From the IMG/VR virus record IMGVR_UViG_3300032285_000892, positions 1-64,000 of that record: DNA of 64,000 bases, one strand, 5' to 3'. The stretch's first letter is position 1. Every line of letters starts with the position of its first letter. Source of the DNA: a virus. Positions 16,598 through 22,050 of the stretch are shown in pieces. The translations under genes were made by a program, and so were the position numbers. Under the pieces are notes generated by a model that did not search any database, was not told the origin of the DNA, and saw only the letters and a list, made by a program, of their open reading frames with translations.

Positions 16598-17070
16598 TTA
16601 GTTTCCCATTGTGAAGTTTCGTCATTCCAATCAAGGTCTTCATTATCCTCGTCGTAATACAATAGATAATCTACATCACATAGAATTACCTTTCCATCCT
16701 CATCCAATACAGCTTGGTCATTCTCCATATATATTGCCACATACCCATGATCGTTTAATGATACATAATTCATCATATCAACGTCCATTTGGTATTCATC
16801 ACCATTGTATTCTATCCAATCAATCTGATCAGGATATGCTACAACAACTTCGGGTACATCTGGATTTGTACTAACCGCTTGTACTAAATAAGGTTTAACA
16901 GGAAAGCCATTCTCACGTATATATTTCTCAATATCACGTGGAATGGCTTCAAGTGCATGCAAATGTAAATACTCATAATCATTTACATTTGCTATAACAG
17001 CAAACAACATACCTTTCTCTAATGGTCCAGGCTCATAATGTCTGTATACTAACTTAACTGCTTTGTACAT
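16591..17070 (-). CDS. acidic hypothetical protein, about 159 aa
   Basis: Start placed at the Met of MYKAVKLVYRHYEPGPLEKG, which overlaps the upstream gene by 17 bases. The product has an N-terminal beta-rich part with ANVNDYEYLHLHALEAIP and a strongly acidic C-terminus (DYLLYYDEDNEDLDW...). No known domain. Its acidity resembles DNA mimics or chaperone-bound factors, which is only speculation. Confidence 0.6.
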   Translation of the reverse strand: MYKAVKLVYRHYEPGPLEKGMLFAVIANVNDYEYLHLHALEAIPRDIEKYIRENGFPVKPYLVQAVSTNPDVPEVVVAYPDQIDWIEYNGDEYQMDVDMMNYVSLNDHGYVAIYMENDQAVLDEDGKVILCDVDYLLYYDEDNEDLDWNDETSQWETKC

Positions 17071-17416
17071 CTTTTGGTAAATTAGAAGCCTTAAATATAG
17101 CAATATCTTCTTTAGTACGCAAAACTATGGCATCTAAATCCTCATCAGTCAATTCTTCTGCATTCATAGTGATAGTATTATTTACAAATGCATCACGCTG
17201 AAATAATCTCATTTCTAATGGTTTAGGCCATGGATTACAATCCATAGAAAAATAATTATGATGTGCATTCCATGTCAAATGACTATTGTCTGAAATAACC
17301 AATGCTATTCCAGTAGGCTCACCTTGTGCATTAAATTCTAATGGAAGATTTAATGATTTGACATATTCACGTAATTCTTTAGCTATGTTCAATAGCTCAA
17401 TTGATTGTGTTCTCAT
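17054..17416 (-). CDS. hypothetical protein, 120 aa
   Basis: A 120-residue soluble protein beginning MRTQSIELLNIAKELREYV, with an alpha/beta alternation and TMNAEELTDEDLDAIVLRT near the C-terminus. No motif recognised. Its end overlaps the start of the acidic gene downstream. Confidence 0.6.
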   Translation of the reverse strand: MRTQSIELLNIAKELREYVKSLNLPLEFNAQGEPTGIALVISDNSHLTWNAHHNYFSMDCNPWPKPLEMRLFQRDAFVNNTITMNAEELTDEDLDAIVLRTKEDIAIFKASNLPKDVQSS

Positions 17417-17446
17417 GTATATACATGTTTAAATGGTGAATAATAA

Positions 17447-17710
17447 TTACTCTGTCTCAAAGAACTCTATTCTAGAAGGACTACTAGTCATCTTCTTATA
17501 GATGAGTTGTGCTTTAACAGCATTAATAGCTGTAGCATAAGCACTAACAGCAGCTTGTGCAGCTTTAATATCAGCTGTTTTATTATATGTCTTGGTTAAC
17601 TTATCACCAATCTTTTGACACATAATACGTACATCATCTACAGTTATTGTTTGTTCAGAGTTAATTACTACTAACTCTGCTACTTCTTGTTTTTTTACTT
17701 GCTTTTTCAT
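17447..17710 (-). CDS. hypothetical protein, 87 aa
   Basis: An 87-residue mainly helical protein (MKKQVKKQEVAELVVINSEQ, then Ala-rich KAAQAAVSAYATAINAVKAQ). The Ala-rich helix and basic start suggest a small helical bundle that may oligomerise. It overlaps the zinc-finger gene by 4 bases. Unknown function. Confidence 0.6.
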   Translation of the reverse strand: MKKQVKKQEVAELVVINSEQTITVDDVRIMCQKIGDKLTKTYNKTADIKAAQAAVSAYATAINAVKAQLIYKKMTSSPSRIEFFETE

Positions 17711-18276
17711 AATTGTTTTAATTGTTTTATTTGACGTGATAATGATAATTGTTTTCTTTTAATTTCAATTAACTCTGCTGGTACATCTTTAGACTTAAGA
17801 TCATTTTGTCGAGTAATTATAGATCTAATATAATAGTCAGTTAAATTATCTCTTTGAAAATTAGTATATGCTTTAATTTTATCTGGATTTCTATTATTCT
17901 TATGAAAATTCTTTGCATATTCTATTCTTTCACGCTTAAGATTATGCTTACGTACATATTCTTTTTGACAAGGTTTACACTTAGCAACTATTTTCCCATT
18001 TTTTTTAACATCATACTCAGATACATGCTTATGTTCATTACAAGCTGTACATCTCTTATGATCATTAATGATAGGATATCTTTTGGTAGGTTTAAACCCA
18101 TTTAGTCTATTATATTTTATAGCAGCTGCTCTATCACACTCTTTGCAATTAGTTTGTGATGCAAATGAACCATCCTTATTAGATTTACTTCTTAATGAGA
18201 ATTCAGATACTGGTTTTATAATATGACATCTACCACATTCTTTGTGGTTATCAATAACTGGATAAAGTAGTTTCAT
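17707..18276 (-). CDS. double Cys4 zinc-finger protein
   Basis: Start placed at MKLLYPVIDNHKECGRCH, because the longer form lies in the hairpin/T-tract zone; product about 189 residues. Two similar modules follow each other: C-x2-C-x16-20-C-x2-C in ECGRCHIIKP..NCKECD and RCTACNEHKH..KCKPCQ. This pattern is known from zinc-ribbon domains next to HNH and homing endonucleases. No HNH triad is present; the C-terminus is a basic helical region with PAELIEIKRKQLSLSRQIK, also typical of such phage proteins. It may bind nucleic acid as an orphan relic of a homing enzyme; function is inferred. Confidence 0.6.
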   Translation of the reverse strand: MKLLYPVIDNHKECGRCHIIKPVSEFSLRSKSNKDGSFASQTNCKECDRAAAIKYNRLNGFKPTKRYPIINDHKRCTACNEHKHVSEYDVKKNGKIVAKCKPCQKEYVRKHNLKRERIEYAKNFHKNNRNPDKIKAYTNFQRDNLTDYYIRSIITRQNDLKSKDVPAELIEIKRKQLSLSRQIKQLKQL

Positions 18277-18296
18277 AAGATTGTTATTTAATAAAT

Positions 18297-18335
18297 GAAT
18301 AAAATAAGAGCTCAAGGACAATGTCCAAGAGCTCT
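18297..18335 (-). terminator. probable terminator upstream of the zinc-finger gene
   Basis: A long stem is formed by AGAGCTC (18307-18313) with GAGCTCT (18329-18335) and an inner GGAC/GTCC, with two A-A (plus) mismatches. On the minus strand it is followed by TTATTTTATT. It would end transcripts from the two small genes at 18354-18692 and from the membrane gene further upstream. Confidence 0.75.
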
Positions 18336-18353
18336 ACACTAATCTCTAAACCC

Positions 18354-18494
18354 TCAAAAACCTAATGCTTGCAACAATTCACTGTTTGCCTCGACTATAA
18401 CAAAGCCACCCAATACACGATATGAGTATTGAAACTTTGCTAGCTGTACAAACAATGAACAGAACACCACTGGTGTTAACTTTACAGTTGTCAT
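18354..18494 (-). CDS. small protein, 46 aa
   Basis: A 46-codon gene, MTTVKLTPVVFCSLFVQLAK, then FQYSYRVLGGFVIVEANSE. It has one Cys and alternates hydrophobic and polar residues in a way that suits a small beta sheet. It ends 19 bases before the terminator at 18335, with 36 bases to the membrane peptide gene upstream. No family recognised; its placement directly before a terminator supports it. Confidence 0.5.
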   Translation of the reverse strand: MTTVKLTPVVFCSLFVQLAKFQYSYRVLGGFVIVEANSELLQALGF

Positions 18495-18530
18495 CTTGTG
18501 CTAATTTAAAGTGTGAATAATTTATTTTTA

Positions 18531-18692
18531 CTACCTACGCGACTCCATATATAATATTGCACCAAATACTGATGCAACTAATGCACAGCCAATAGCTGTA
18601 GCATAATGACCATGTACACACATCTGTATGAACATTAAAATCATAAGGACACCTAGTGTCCCTATGAATATTTTATTAATGAGCTTATCCAT
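18531..18692 (-). CDS. small membrane protein, 53 aa
   Basis: A 53-codon gene with two potential transmembrane helices: residues 8-25 (IFIGTLGVLMILMFIQMC) and 31-49 (ATAIGCALVASVFGAILYM), with basic ends. The start ATG overlaps the stop of the upstream membrane gene by one base (TAATG), a typical translational coupling. Tandem with the 124-residue gene, it could be a membrane module for exclusion or lysis; function unknown. Confidence 0.6.
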   Translation of the reverse strand: MDKLINKIFIGTLGVLMILMFIQMCVHGHYATAIGCALVASVFGAILYMESRR

Positions 18693-19066
18693 TATACATC
18701 TCCTCTTTCAGAGCGTGATAACAAATAGACAAAGAAGCATGCAATGATACCAAAGAACATGAATGCTATATGTACATCCATATCAAATGGTTCTGTCATT
18801 ATTTTATACACCAATGTGTATAATACAATGATGCAGCAACAAAGAGCATAAATACAACTACGCATTAATATGCGTCTGTGATGATTAGCTGCTTTCTTAG
18901 CTAGATTATAATGAACAATATTGTCCGTATTAGCAATATGCTTATCAGATACAACAATACGTCCATTATATTGTCTTTTAGCAAATTCAGCCCAATCTTT
19001 GTCTTGATGTGAGCCCATGTGTAAACCTTTCTCATTGTACACAGTGTAATAGTTTGAATCTTTCAT
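18692..19066 (-). CDS. membrane protein, 124 aa
   Basis: A 124-residue protein with a soluble N-terminal part (SNYYTVYNEKGLHMGSHQD...), a Cys-rich transmembrane helix around residues 68-90 (CIYALCCCIIVLYTLVYKI) and a second helix around 100-116 (IAFMFFGIIACFFVYLL), ending in SRSERGDV. It begins about 40 bases behind the terminator at 19106, so its transcription is separate. No family recognised. The following 53-residue membrane gene is coupled to it. Confidence 0.65.
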   Translation of the reverse strand: MKDSNYYTVYNEKGLHMGSHQDKDWAEFAKRQYNGRIVVSDKHIANTDNIVHYNLAKKAANHHRRILMRSCIYALCCCIIVLYTLVYKIMTEPFDMDVHIAFMFFGIIACFFVYLLSRSERGDV

Positions 19067-19090
19067 TTGAATAATATATTAAAGGGTTGA

Positions 19091-19124
19091 AAATACAATA
19101 AAATAAGAGGACTGATTACCCTCT
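19091..19124 (-). terminator. terminator at the 3' end of the structured RNA
   Basis: On the minus strand a 5-bp stem AGAGG/CCTCT (19124-19120 with 19110-19106, extendable by neighbouring bases) encloses a 9-base loop and is followed by TATTTTATTGTATTTT. It is weaker than the other terminators but its T-rich tail is clear. It marks the 3' end of the candidate RNA. Confidence 0.6.
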
Positions 19125-19520
19125 CTGTACCGTTTAGCAGGTTGAAGCCATCTATCTCCACACCAGGACGTATCCTTACAGTGGCTGGTTGTTACCAATG
19201 AATGACTGTGATAGAACATGTTCATCATTCATTAGGCTCGAGACTTATCCCCTCTGCATTCAATTGTAATACTAACCTGATATTTTTGCACTCCACATGG
19301 CATGGACTAATTCTCATTACTGAGACTGCATATTTCCTAGTTTACAATTGCTATCCCTTGGGAGATGATTAGTTAAGCTTTTTCAATAAATGATAACATA
19401 CGTTACACATCAATTGATTGCTACACAATCCTACTAATCATGTGGTTTCACATCTTATGAGTACTAACAGAATAGCCTTTAGCATAAGAAGTCTTTATAT
19501 CCACGATAGAATGATGCATT
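19106..19520 (-). ncRNA. candidate structured non-coding RNA, about 400 nt
   Basis: This stretch has no credible reading frame but lies between two leftward intrinsic terminators (19521-19549 and 19091-19124). Read on the minus strand it contains several helices. One is TCTTATG/CATAAGA (19485-19453 area). Another is ATGTG/CACAT closed by AAAC. A 13-14 bp helix of CAATTGTAA-ACTA with TAGT-A-TTACAATTG (19342-19350 region with 19260-19274) encloses an arm TCTCA-GTAA-TGAGA with a GNRA loop. An 11-bp hairpin AATGAATGA/TCATTCATT (about 19198-19235) has a palindromic GAACATGTTC in its loop. An AGGA-TACG-TCCT hairpin has a UNCG-type loop. I do not recognise the family; large phage RNAs such as GOLLD and ROOL are comparable in size only. 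The promoter is not visible. Confidence 0.5.
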
Positions 19521-19549
19521 AAATAAAAGGGAGAAACATTATTCTCCCT
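19521..19549 (-). terminator. rho-independent terminator behind the 48-residue gene
   Basis: An 8-bp perfect stem AGGGAGAA/TTCTCCCT (19528-19535 with 19542-19549) has a 6-base loop and is followed on the minus strand by TTTTATTT. It lies 10 bases behind the stop codon of the 48-residue gene. Confidence 0.8.
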
Positions 19550-19558
19550 ATGTAATAA

Positions 19559-19705
19559 CTAATTAGAAGAAACAAGCTTACATGCAAATAAACCATAAGG
19601 TTCATTATTAAGTAATGACTCAACTTTTTCTTTTGAATTTACAGTGAGTATGTGATGATAAATTATAGAACATCTACTATACTCAATAGAATATATATGA
19701 TACAT
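19559..19705 (-). CDS. small protein, 48 aa
   Basis: A 48-codon frame starting MYHIYSIEYSRCSIIYHHIL and ending ACKLVSSN, with two Cys and a polar middle (TVNSKEKVESLLNNEPYG). A terminator directly follows the stop, and an upstream region with inverted repeats precedes it, so it looks like a complete small transcription unit. The sequence has no known family. An early regulatory or anti-host peptide is possible but nothing in the sequence proves it. Confidence 0.5.
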   Translation of the reverse strand: MYHIYSIEYSRCSIIYHHILTVNSKEKVESLLNNEPYGLFACKLVSSN

Positions 19706-19950
19706 ATCTTTATTATTTAAAAGGGTTATTAATGCTATATATTTTTATGTAGCATGTTATTTTACACTATTGATTTACACTTATTATCACCCACAAGTGG
19801 ACACGTCGCTTCTTTTACATCCACTTAATCAATCAAACTAATGCTATTTTACCATAAAAGTTTATTTTCTCCTAAGAGACAATGTTAAGATAGCATTAGT
19901 TTGTCAATTACCCACCCAACTGAGTACTTACTCCCACCTTGTATATAAAA
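19706..19950. promoter_or_regulatory. intergenic control region with inverted repeats
   Basis: About 245 bases without a gene. A perfect 14-bp inverted repeat CAAACTAATGCTAT/ATAGCATTAGTTTG (19834-19847 and 19890-19903) is separated by 42 bases, inside which TCTC-CTAA-GAGA can form another small stem. A further copy of the core, AATGCTAT (19731-19738), faces TAGCAT at 19751-19756. The repeated AATGCTAT word also appears upstream of the scaffold gene near 27300. These are candidates for a regulator-binding site or origin element. I see no clear TAnnTTTG box here. Confidence 0.5.
19834..19903. repeat. perfect 14-bp inverted repeat, 42-bp spacer
   Basis: The left arm 19834-19847 and right arm 19890-19903 are exactly complementary over 14 bases. 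The spacer is AT-rich and contains a small nested palindrome. The arms have no T-tract behind them, which argues against a terminator; they lie between a terminator and a small leftward gene. Confidence 0.8.
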
Positions 19951-19976
19951 GAATGAGAGCCCGAAGGCTCTCGTTC
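19951..19976 (-). terminator. rho-independent terminator with TTCG loop
   Basis: An 11-bp stem (19951-19961 with 19966-19976, one T-G pair) closes on a TTCG tetraloop in the minus-strand reading and is followed by TTTTATATA. It starts 2 bases behind the stop codon of the gene at 19979. This is a strong intrinsic terminator. Confidence 0.9.
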
Positions 19977-19978
19977 TA

Positions 19979-20362
19979 TTATGATGGAATTTCATCAGTT
20001 GATTCAACCTTAACAGTTGGCTTGAAACCACGAGATTTGATGGCTTCGATCTTGGAAGCTGTTTCTACCATTCGCTCTACCTTATCGGCACTAGCTGCGG
20101 ACTGAACCTGCCAAGAGTATTGGCCTTTCTTATCCTCACGCTCCACTAAACCAAGCTTGGCACGATACAACGTATCGTTGTTATAAAGCTTGACAAACTC
20201 GTCATCTTCATTGGCAGTAAAAGCTTTGCCTTCGAAGGAGAAGGTAAGATAGTTCTTGCCGTGGTTCTTGCTACCTTCTTTAGTGTTCTTGTAAGGACGA
20301 GCACCTGCAATTAAAGAGATGTCAAAGATTTCAACACCCTCAATGATTTTTGGATTTTCCAT
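19979..20362 (-). CDS. hypothetical protein of the divergent region, 127 aa
   Basis: A 127-residue protein (MENPKIIEGVEIFDISLIAG...) with a beta-rich first half (KNYLTFSFEGKAFTANEDDEF, YNNDTLYRAKLGLVE) and a helical C-terminal part (ADKVERMVETASKIEAIKS). The fold could be a small OB- or SH3-type barrel, so nucleic-acid binding is possible. It is the first leftward gene from the strand switch and has its own strong terminator, so it is a monocistronic unit, possibly an abundant early protein. Its base composition is more GC-rich than its neighbours and several codons look optimised, consistent with high expression. Not recognised. Confidence 0.7.
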   Translation of the reverse strand: MENPKIIEGVEIFDISLIAGARPYKNTKEGSKNHGKNYLTFSFEGKAFTANEDDEFVKLYNNDTLYRAKLGLVEREDKKGQYSWQVQSAASADKVERMVETASKIEAIKSRGFKPTVKVESTDEIPS

Positions 20363-20760
20363 TTGTATTATAAATTAAATTGTTATTGGCTACAAGCACG
20401 GGGACCACCCGAACCCAGCCAATCATAGGTGGGGTCGCTGTTGGAAGTGGTCAACACAGTCACACCCACGATCGGTATGGGGGGTGCATAAAATTTTGGG
20501 AAAAGTTTTTTTTGGAATTTGGAAAAACATTTCTCACCTTTGGGGGGGATAAAGGGGGGGCTACATCAATCTCCGTGCACACCATGATACATATATCTTT
20601 AAACGATTCTAGAAATTTTGGAATAGGATTTGAATATAGGGGTAAGTCTCTTTCAAATTACAGTATTAAAAGGTTTGATTTTCATTTGTTATTGATTACA
20701 GTTTCATTTGTATTTACAAGATTTAATACATAATATAGCAATGGAATTATCTAGTCATCA
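20363..20760. other. divergent intergenic region with GC-rich block and G-tracts
   Basis: About 400 bases between diverging genes. The left part (20385-20560) is far richer in G and C than the rest of the genome and holds ATTGGCT/AGCCAAT (20385-20391 with 20417-20423) and CTGTTG/CAACA stems. It also holds G6 at 20479-20484, GGG at 20498-20500, and G7-ATAAA-G7 at 20542-20560. The last tract fits the rule for an intramolecular G-quadruplex. The right part is AT-rich and leads into the late promoter. A TTG-started frame over 20380-20733 exists but looks spurious. An origin, packaging site or regulatory region is plausible. Confidence 0.55.
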
Positions 20761-20790
20761 TTGGAATTCCAAACATTATACATATATTTG
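20761..20790 (+). promoter_or_regulatory. Bacteroidota-type promoter for the rightward genes
   Basis: TTG at 20761-20763, exactly 19 bases, then TATATTTG at 20783-20790. This matches the Bacteroidota -33/-7 consensus (TTTG, N19-21, TAnnTTTG) and is repeated with identical spacing at 56216-56245. It lies 15 bases before the start codon of the first rightward gene. Confidence 0.75.
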
Positions 20791-20804
20791 CCAGCAAACT
20801 AAAT

Positions 20805-21167
20805 ATGGAAAAGACTGACAAGAAGATAATCATCCAGAAGTTTCTACGTAAAGTGGAAGATGATTATGCTATGGCAGAGAAATATTACAGTGTTCTGTCT
20901 ACGATTAATGATCTCCATTTGACAACAAGGGAGATACAGCTTGTAGCATTCACAGCTATACATGGTAACATCTCATATTCCACTATCAGAGAGGATTTTT
21001 GTAAGAAATACAATAGCACCAGTCCTACGATTAATAACATCATTAGCAAACTAAAGAGGATAGGAGTGTTTGTAAAGGATGGAAGTAAGATAAAGGTTAA
21101 TCCTGTCATCATTCTCAATTTCAGTAATAATATTACGCTAGAGATAAAGGTGGAACACAATGAATAA
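20805..21167 (+). CDS. winged-helix-type DNA-binding protein, 120 aa
   Basis: A 120-residue protein with a helix-turn-helix core: LHLTTREIQLVAFTAIHGNIS (residues 32-52), IREDFCKKYN, then STSPTINNIISKLKRIGVFV, the shape of a helix followed by a recognition helix, ending in a beta hairpin (KDGSKIKVNP). It resembles crAss-like proteins I remember at the head of the packaging gene block. A late regulator or the small terminase subunit are both possible. It is the first gene after the rightward promoter and overlaps the HU-like gene by 8 bases. Confidence 0.65.
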   Translation: MEKTDKKIIIQKFLRKVEDDYAMAEKYYSVLSTINDLHLTTREIQLVAFTAIHGNISYSTIREDFCKKYNSTSPTINNIISKLKRIGVFVKDGSKIKVNPVIILNFSNNITLEIKVEHNE

Positions 21168-21513
21168 GCCTCAATCATTATCGGTTAAAGATTTTCTTAT
21201 AAGGACGCTAGCTGTTAAGCTTGCAATTAATGAGAAGGTAATTGAGGCTGTAGTTAATCATCAGTTCCAAGCTGCTAATGAGGCATTAGATACAAATGGT
21301 AGTGTAGAAATAAGTGGATTTGGTAAGTTTGTGTTTAATGAAAAGAAGGCTGAAAGAAAGACATTGATTCTTCTAGCAAAGATAGAAAAGGCAGAGAAGG
21401 ATATGGTTGATGAGAATGCAACAGAAGCATATAGGAAGAGAGCAAGTGTTATATATACAAAAACTAAAGATCAATTAAGATTGCTAAAACCAACAAAAAG
21501 CGATAATGATTAA
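21160..21513 (+). CDS. HU/IHF-like DNA-bending protein
   Basis: A 117-residue HU/IHF-family protein: N-terminal helix pair (VKDFLIRTLAVKLAINEKVIEAVVNHQF), then the diagnostic VEISGFGKFVFN (near residues 45-56), followed by a shortened and altered arm and a helical C-terminus. crAss-like phages are known to encode an IHF-subunit-like protein next to the terminase genes. It probably bends or compacts phage DNA for packaging, transcription or replication. It overlaps its two neighbours by 8 bases. Confidence 0.8.
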   Translation: MNKPQSLSVKDFLIRTLAVKLAINEKVIEAVVNHQFQAANEALDTNGSVEISGFGKFVFNEKKAERKTLILLAKIEKAEKDMVDENATEAYRKRASVIYTKTKDQLRLLKPTKSDND

Positions 21514-21811
21514 TTTTAAACAAGTGTACGAAGGGTGGAAGAACAAGTTAGTTCCAGCCCAAGAAATGAAAGTGTTAATACATGATGTTAGTTCAGAGCG
21601 TTTAGCATTATGTGGAAAGTGTCCATTTCATTCAAAGTTTCATAAGACGCCTTTAAGGCCAGATGATCATTGTGTAGAATGTGGATGCACCTTGTCAGCA
21701 AAGACAGCATGTTTGTCATGTGAATGTCCGCTACCAGGAGAGAGAAAAGTATGGGATGCTGTATTGCATTCTAACGAAGAAGAAGAAGAATTGAAAAAAC
21801 AAACCGTCTAA
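21506..21811 (+). CDS. zinc-ribbon-like protein, 101 aa
   Basis: A 101-residue protein with Cys pairs spaced as in zinc ribbons: ALCGKCPFH, then DHCVECGCT, then TACLSCECP. The N-terminus (INFKQVYEGWKNKLVP) is helical and the C-terminus acidic (HSNEEEEELKK). It is a conserved small protein of the crAss-like packaging block from memory, with unknown function; it probably binds metal and perhaps nucleic acid. It overlaps the next gene by one base. Confidence 0.65.
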   Translation: MINFKQVYEGWKNKLVPAQEMKVLIHDVSSERLALCGKCPFHSKFHKTPLRPDDHCVECGCTLSAKTACLSCECPLPGERKVWDAVLHSNEEEEELKKQTV

Positions 21812-22050
21812 TGGCTATTATAAAGAAGGTTCCCCTCGATGAGATTATAGATGTCTTTATGGACTTATATAATAAAGGTGTTGATTTCATTGATCTCATT
21901 GCCTCAGAAAATGATAACAGAATTTCTGTTATATTCTCTGAAGATTACCTCAATGAAGATGCTAAAGATAACTTCGAAAATATTGAAGTGGACATAGAAG
22001 AGGAAGAGCAAAAAGCTTTAACAGACGAAGATCTAAATCAGTTGATATGA
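21811..22050 (+). CDS. acidic small protein, 79 aa
   Basis: A 79-residue acidic protein, MAIIKKVPLDEIIDVFMDLY, with a hydrophobic first half (VDFIDLIASENDNRISVIFS) and an acidic tail (IEVDIEEEEQKALTDEDLN). No motif recognised. Its stop overlaps the start of the next gene (ATGA). Confidence 0.6.
   Translation: MAIIKKVPLDEIIDVFMDLYNKGVDFIDLIASENDNRISVIFSEDYLNEDAKDNFENIEVDIEEEEQKALTDEDLNQLI

Follow-up and report, generated by a model that had tools for sequence, protein, structure and literature searches.

Locus and features

The window analysed here is a stretch of 64,000 nucleotides from a virus record of IMG/VR (IMGVR_UViG_3300032285_000892), which is 119,148 bases long. Its terminase and major head protein have distant kin in crAss-like phages, Cellulophaga phi17:2 and phi4:1, and the same two proteins are also distantly akin to those of Flavobacterium Fpv phages and Leptolyngbya phage Lbo-JY46. 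The interval of interest sits in a gap of about 900 bases in a block of leftward genes, with the terminase gene about 3 kb away on the opposite strand. Its main features, in the direction of reading, are the following.

19705-19559, minus strand: ORF of 48 codons, 5' of the terminator hairpin
19549-19528, minus strand: terminator-like hairpin from the terminator scan, immediately 5' of the ribozyme
19527-19244, minus strand: putative divergent twister ribozyme, P1 to P1' (covariation, P1 register, comparison with canonical twisters)
19243-19106, minus strand: second conserved RNA, ending in a terminator
19125-19105, minus strand: downstream terminator from the terminator scan, with hairpin GAGAGGGUAAUCAGUCCUCU at 19125-19106
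19066-18692, minus strand: gene of 124 codons, 3' of the downstream terminator

Further downstream in the same block lies a gene resembling Endonuclease VII / HNH proteins (17707-18321, minus strand; PHROG matches). A long hairpin, ACTAATGCTAT..ATAGCATTAGT, which is not in Rfam, is found 5' of the ribozyme at 19903-19834 on the minus strand and is kept at 80-89% in at least 10 relatives (L245, L270, L005, L002, L004, L021, L013 and others).

The sequence-only reading of this interval had proposed a structured RNA without a plausible gene between two leftward terminators. Both terminators were recovered in the scan, in a region (17000-22000) that holds 13 terminator-like sites against 2.0 in shuffled sequences. 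The ORFs touching the interval are all at most 56 amino acids long, and among 42 compact relatives no frame is kept open and lengths vary modulo 3, leaving no plausible gene. The pairing elements described earlier also exist: the ribozyme stem P5 corresponds to the 13-bp helix with its single bulge (CAAUUGUAA-ACUA / UAGU-A-UUACAAUUG), the GNRA-capped arm (UCUCA-GUAA-UGAGA) lies within it, the UNCG-capped hairpin reads GGA-UACG-UCC, and the hairpin with the palindromic loop GAACAUGUUC supplies the second RNA with its first stem. Dimerisation through the palindrome GAACATGTTC, which had been suggested, found no comparative support, as the palindrome is not conserved in relatives.

Folding stability of the interval did not exceed chance on the minus strand (z -1.56, with 7 of 100 shuffles equally stable) or on the plus strand (z -1.15). 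Rfam gave zero matches in the window at gathering scores and, up to E 10, only chance matches to unrelated families; Rfam does not know the structured region. It is the comparison with relatives, and not folding energy, that confirms the structured interval as real at the level of sequence: the compensatory changes that the sequence-only reading had proposed to look for are strong. Columns of the paired regions contained 21 G-U cells and 3 A-C cells, a bias which identifies the minus strand as that of the RNA.

Relatives and size of the family

Relatives were found neither through the neighbouring 127-aa protein nor by a DNA search of annotated phages. By terminase similarity 80 loci were collected, and about 12 of these contained short invariant blocks between freely varying stretches, which is a signature of structured RNA. 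Two gapped patterns built from the invariant blocks hit over 200 stretches in viral contigs, a lower bound, and fold filtering of both pattern scans together with the terminase-relative loci left at least 167 distinct ribozyme copies. The copies listed comprise 123 compact ones, 27 with an insert and 17 that are incomplete or otherwise unclassified. Judged by pattern and predicted fold, the ribozyme variant is common to well over a hundred uncultured phages.

A covariance model (R1) was built solely from the new RNAs. Carrier genomes have usually one and sometimes two R1 copies, and the model found no copy in 5 of the 26 genomes searched. A search of named crAss-like phages and one cyanophage with R1 gave no relative; weak hits in Leptolyngbya phage Lbo-JY46 and Cellulophaga phage phi17:2 were rejected as false, since P4 is unpaired or the core letters are missing. 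The only contig of a GTDB genome with the exact core is L291 (RFNS01000086.1), a 4.6-kb contig in an alphaproteobacterial MAG, which is probably a stray phage fragment.

Core of the probable ribozyme

The element at 19527-19244 on the minus strand is very probably a twister-type self-cleaving ribozyme, belonging to a divergent subfamily of uncultured phages. Its parts are assigned as follows, all on the minus strand.

19522-19527: P1 5' strand UUUAUU, partner 19249-19244 (register test)
19520-19521: predicted cleavage site U19521^A19520, followed by A19519 (U^AA)
19514-19518: P2 5' strand UGCAU, partner 19259-19255 (3' strand AUGCA); C19513 (T2) is next
19505-19509: P4 5' strand CUAUC, partner 19355-19351
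19365-19504: insert domain in L4, flush with P4, with stems H1, an inner stem and H3
19504-19501 / 19445-19442: H1; inner stem at 19488-19483 / 19459-19454
19441-19433 / 19373-19365: H3
19356-19363: L4 UCCCAAGG, in which CCC (19362-19360) and GGG (19252-19250) form the predicted pseudoknot T1
19351-19355: P4 3' strand GAUAG
19261-19350: P5 hairpin (19350-19342 / 19269-19261) with hypervariable interior
19250-19254: invariant GAGGG, with A19253 and with GGG as the T1 strand
19244-19249: P1 3' strand GAUAAG

The core of the new RNAs reads U^AA-UGCAY-C-..-P4-UUCCCAAGG-P4'-C-P5-GA-RUGCA-GAGGG. In an alignment of 42 compact copies 98.4% of cells are paired and both sides change in 17 of 23 pairs; the covariation score is 0.419 against 0.139, every measure beats 500 of 500 shuffles, and the signal collapses when partners are slid by one column. 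Both-side changes were seen in 4 of the 5 pairs of P4 and in all ten pairs of P5. All four pairs of P2 covary (UGCA/UGCA, UGUA/UACA, UGCG/CGCA, CACA/UGUG), as does a fifth pair, while the AA and G that flank the stem are invariant; the P2 pairs had seemed invariant because of the search pattern, and variation appears when other sequences are admitted in P2.

The register of P1 was predicted beforehand from the twister fold, in which the base just 5' of the U is paired with the one just 3' of GGG. Among 141 copies this register has 2.65 of 4 positions paired compared to 2.07 in shuffles (z 8.0), and the sole other register with a signal (z 7.6) lies on this diagonal too, shifted outwards by one base. 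The U at position -1 is present in 133 of 141 distinct copies and the AA after it is invariant in the 42-sequence alignment. UCCCAAG and GAGGG are likewise invariant in the 42 sequences, and Rfam-confirmed twisters have identical letters; T1 never varies and so is itself without covariation. By analogy G19254 is presumed to be the catalytic guanine, equivalent to G45 of the O. sativa twister (PMC5408937). Through comparison of relatives, the alignments show the fold, the strand, the core residues, the P1 register, the placement of the hairpin and the inserted stems.

The interiors of P5 are hypervariable, 124 of 156 clusters being singletons, and are sometimes common to ribozymes with unlike P4 stems, for example those of the window and L085 (91%, 65 nt). 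The compact twister is absent from the single minimum-energy fold of the window. An assignment to flavivirus-type exonuclease-resistant RNAs, which the topology had suggested, was dropped upon recognition of the twister letters.

Comparison with canonical twisters

The core of twisters contains a U-A step, between the two nucleotides of which cleavage takes place, and a P2 of four pairs bounded by A and G; in the P4 loop a conserved U stands with two A and with three nucleotides of T1, and the remaining three T1 nucleotides are in L1 together with GA (PMC5408937). For comparison, an independent pattern was used to collect 56 stretches with canonical twisters from viral contigs. These read U^AA-UGCA-GCC..GUCCCAAGC..UGCA-GAGGG and share UAAUGCA, UCCCAAG and GCAGAGGG with the new RNAs. 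Rfam RF03160 confirmed L310 (E 5e-15) and L301, and Twister-P5 confirmed two further stretches. In the reverse test R1 matched the canonical twisters L345 (E 0.002) and L303 (E 0.03). Canonical twisters are common in viral contigs of IMG/VR (L297-L352); L318, L337 and L345 each hold several, and only some of L297-L352 pass the Rfam gathering score.

Rfam's three twister models (RF03160, RF03154 and RF02684, for P1, P3 and P5) gave no match to the new RNAs at E 10, and the RNAs are therefore ranked as a divergent subfamily rather than as ordinary members. With twister type P1 (RF03160; O. sativa and env22 structures, PMC5408937) they share U^AA, the P1 register, the 4-bp P2, the U-CCC-A-A of the P4 loop, T1 with the GGG of GAGGG, and the presumed catalytic G and A. 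Unlike that type, they have no P3, have P5 in all copies (P5 occurs in 1% of annotated twisters, PMC6154101), and may carry an optional two-stem insert in L4. Furthermore, their L4 is UUCCCAAGG instead of GUCCCAAGCC, a change that removes the essentially invariant G-C pair and alters T2. In the 42 sequences the pair closing L4 is C-G in 27, U-A in 7, A-U in 6 and G-C in 1, with one added nucleotide. One half of T2 is C-G in 42 of 42; in the other half C or U faces G or A, with C facing A in L364 and L385.

Twister-P5 (RF02684) also has the P5 stem. It is, however, a circular permutation that starts and ends in P5, whereas the new RNAs have a closed P5 hairpin and end in P1. Missing twister permutations have been sought without promising candidates (PMC10085705); the new variant is not a permutation and differs in this from what was sought there. 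In the literature, subscription papers and preprints aside, we found no twister in crAss-like phages, and an earlier description is possible. As the family is missed by current twister models, such ribozymes are presumably undercounted in phages.

The domain inserted in L4

The inserted domain is carried by a minority of copies, the window included, and its position is exactly between P4 and the nucleotide preceding UCCCAAGG. In 36 copies H1 covaries (GUGG/CCAC, GUAG/CUAC, GCAG/CUGC) and H3 has 6.75 of 7 pairs formed against 4.45 in shuffles; the two stems directly abut P4 and one another. The internal loop is conserved in sequence (GURGAUAURAAGACUU / GAUGUGAAAC), and the domain may bear a loop-B-like resemblance to the hairpin ribozyme. 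A scan for the insert by itself found 65 distinct places, and among the 60 with enough sequence 53 have the standard P2 strand upstream; the remainder are mostly twisters whose P2 sequence differs or whose loops are altered.

The inserted domain may have a regulatory role. In its strongest form this would make the RNA a natural allosteric twister, in which a sensor in L4, and perhaps the P5 domain, switches cleavage at the boundary in response to a ligand, RNA or protein. The conserved internal loop, the covariation, the location at the P4/L4 junction beside the active site and the twister context of the insert-only scan all fit such a switch. We nevertheless regard it as rather unlikely, since no known aptamer was matched, most copies lack the domain, and the genes behind the ribozyme are unrelated, in contrast to what is seen with metabolite riboswitches. 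Next to the catalytic loop, 140 nt of inserted sequence such as the window has could slow or block folding, a point against the ribozyme reading as a whole. In any case, the covarying insert indicates that the core of a very probable twister tolerates, and perhaps uses, large insertions in the loop of its active site.

Genomic setting and proposed role

The 45 nucleotides before the predicted cut fold more stably than random 45-mers (minimum free energy -8.4 vs -5.4 kcal/mol, 133 copies). The 66 strong upstream hairpins end mostly 0-7 nt before the cleavage site, where U makes up 55% compared to 31%, and in the window the U-tract of the upstream terminator (19527-19520) also serves as the 5' strand of P1. 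The nearest downstream ORF is on the ribozyme strand in 133 of 151 cases, and downstream start codons peak 30-60 nt past GAGGG. The downstream genes are unrelated, forming 105 clusters among 143. In L104 (838-2301, plus strand), and also in L151 and L182, the gene behind the twister encodes a DUF2828/DUF7788 protein according to Pfam on L104. These proteins presumably resemble TROVE/vWA (Ro-like RNA-binding) proteins.

According to the mechanism that we propose, the RNA would form P1, P2, P4 and P5, and the UCCCAAG loop of P4 would fold back, so that its CCC forms T1 with GGG in GAGGG. If the RNA behaves like solved twisters, G19254 and A19520 would then lie at the bond between U19521 and A19520. 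The 2'-OH of U19521 would attack this bond, and the upstream product would end in a 2',3'-cyclic phosphate while the downstream one would begin with a 5'-OH. RNA read through the terminator would thus be cut so that the 3' end of the upstream transcript is protected by a hairpin, much as after termination; as the U-tract of the terminator is the 5' strand of P1, the 3' end made by cleavage would resemble that made by termination. The downstream transcript would begin with a compact fold, and in the window its predicted length is about 410-420 nt, comprising the ribozyme, the second conserved RNA and the terminator.

It is probable that the ribozyme cuts phage transcripts just past the terminator, and from the setting we infer that cleavage takes place in the cell and has a role in setting transcript ends. 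To our knowledge, the biological role of twisters is largely unestablished. The present set is large and its setting consistent, with the predicted cut past a terminator-like hairpin and often shortly before the next start codon, so that one definite role, that of fixing where transcripts end at the boundaries of units, becomes testable.

It could also be thought that the twister fold has been kept and the cutting lost, so that the RNA would act as a compact 5' cap or binding element stabilising the downstream transcript. A protective structure at the 5' end would be in keeping with the position before genes and with the pseudoknot that joins the loop to the 3' tail; L4 has also lost its canonical G-C pair, and the insert adjoins the catalytic loop. 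This is improbable, however, given that the catalytic letters are all kept (U at -1 as well as the invariant AA and GAGGG) and that P1, including the sequence lost on cleavage, is still under pairing constraint. Even less can be said for a cis-regulatory riboswitch in place of a ribozyme, which the compact, pseudoknotted three-way fold in 5' UTRs might bring to mind: the core matches twister letter for letter and the downstream genes fall into too many unrelated clusters, and a gene-specific riboswitch was rejected on account of this diversity.

The nearest report is that of HDV-like theta ribozymes in gut phages, which often cut at tRNA 3' ends (PMC10879173). They too are small self-cleaving RNAs in non-coding phage DNA, mostly sense to their neighbours; their fold and core differ, and no called tRNA stands beside the ribozyme of the window. 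The new ribozyme has neither a match to the HDV-like models of Rfam nor a tRNA 3' end at its cleavage site. As a rule the relatives have no adjoining called tRNA either, and tRNA processing was rejected on this ground.

In L002 (about 6460-6330) and L008 (about 6620-6500), both on the minus strand, a tRNA-like element ending in ACGA lies directly behind the twister. Like a Leu-type tRNA it has an acceptor, a D arm and a T arm, but it has no normal anticodon arm and is not called by ARAGORN. A phage contig that carries two of the twisters has a tmRNA gene (L205:8424-8818, plus strand; tag AKTQSERVAEGEAILASIFADEAVAA). Tandem twister pairs, 150-600 nt apart, occur in L270 (2930-3227) and also in L125, L135, L094 and L174; cuts at both would free a monomer, and its circularisation would be possible.

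The second RNA

Between the ribozyme and the downstream terminator the following parts are assigned.

Module A, minus strand: a covarying hairpin and the invariant letters AACAACCAGCCACUG-hairpin-GGUGUGGAG (19193-19156)
Module B, minus strand: a candidate pseudoknot GGCUUCAACCUGCUAAACGGU (19149-19129) together with the terminator hairpin

The invariant core of this RNA is ACCAGCCACUG-hairpin-GUGGAG, and in 11 sequences both sides change in 14 of the 21 predicted pairs. An Rfam search with it gave no match. It is located 3' of the ribozyme in L002, L122 and L088, 5' of it in L089 and L226, and apart from it elsewhere, which argues for two independent modules. On these comparative grounds 19243-19106 is a second, independent conserved RNA that ends in the downstream terminator.

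Of the original proposal, the terminator-bounded, conserved and structured non-coding RNA thus stands, and the single new large RNA gives way to two modules. One large ornate RNA of the GOLLD or ROOL type, which the stretch of about 400 nt bounded by terminators had brought to mind, is hardly credible, as the modules are distributed separately, are far smaller and include a predicted ribozyme with its core in the 5' half, and the Rfam models are unmatched; the likeness is that of a structured phage RNA bounded by terminators.

A further motif, AGCATAAGTGCTGATGAAACAATGCTGG, recurs 3' of the ribozyme in L007, L013, L020, L021 and L257, and is probably another structured RNA module.
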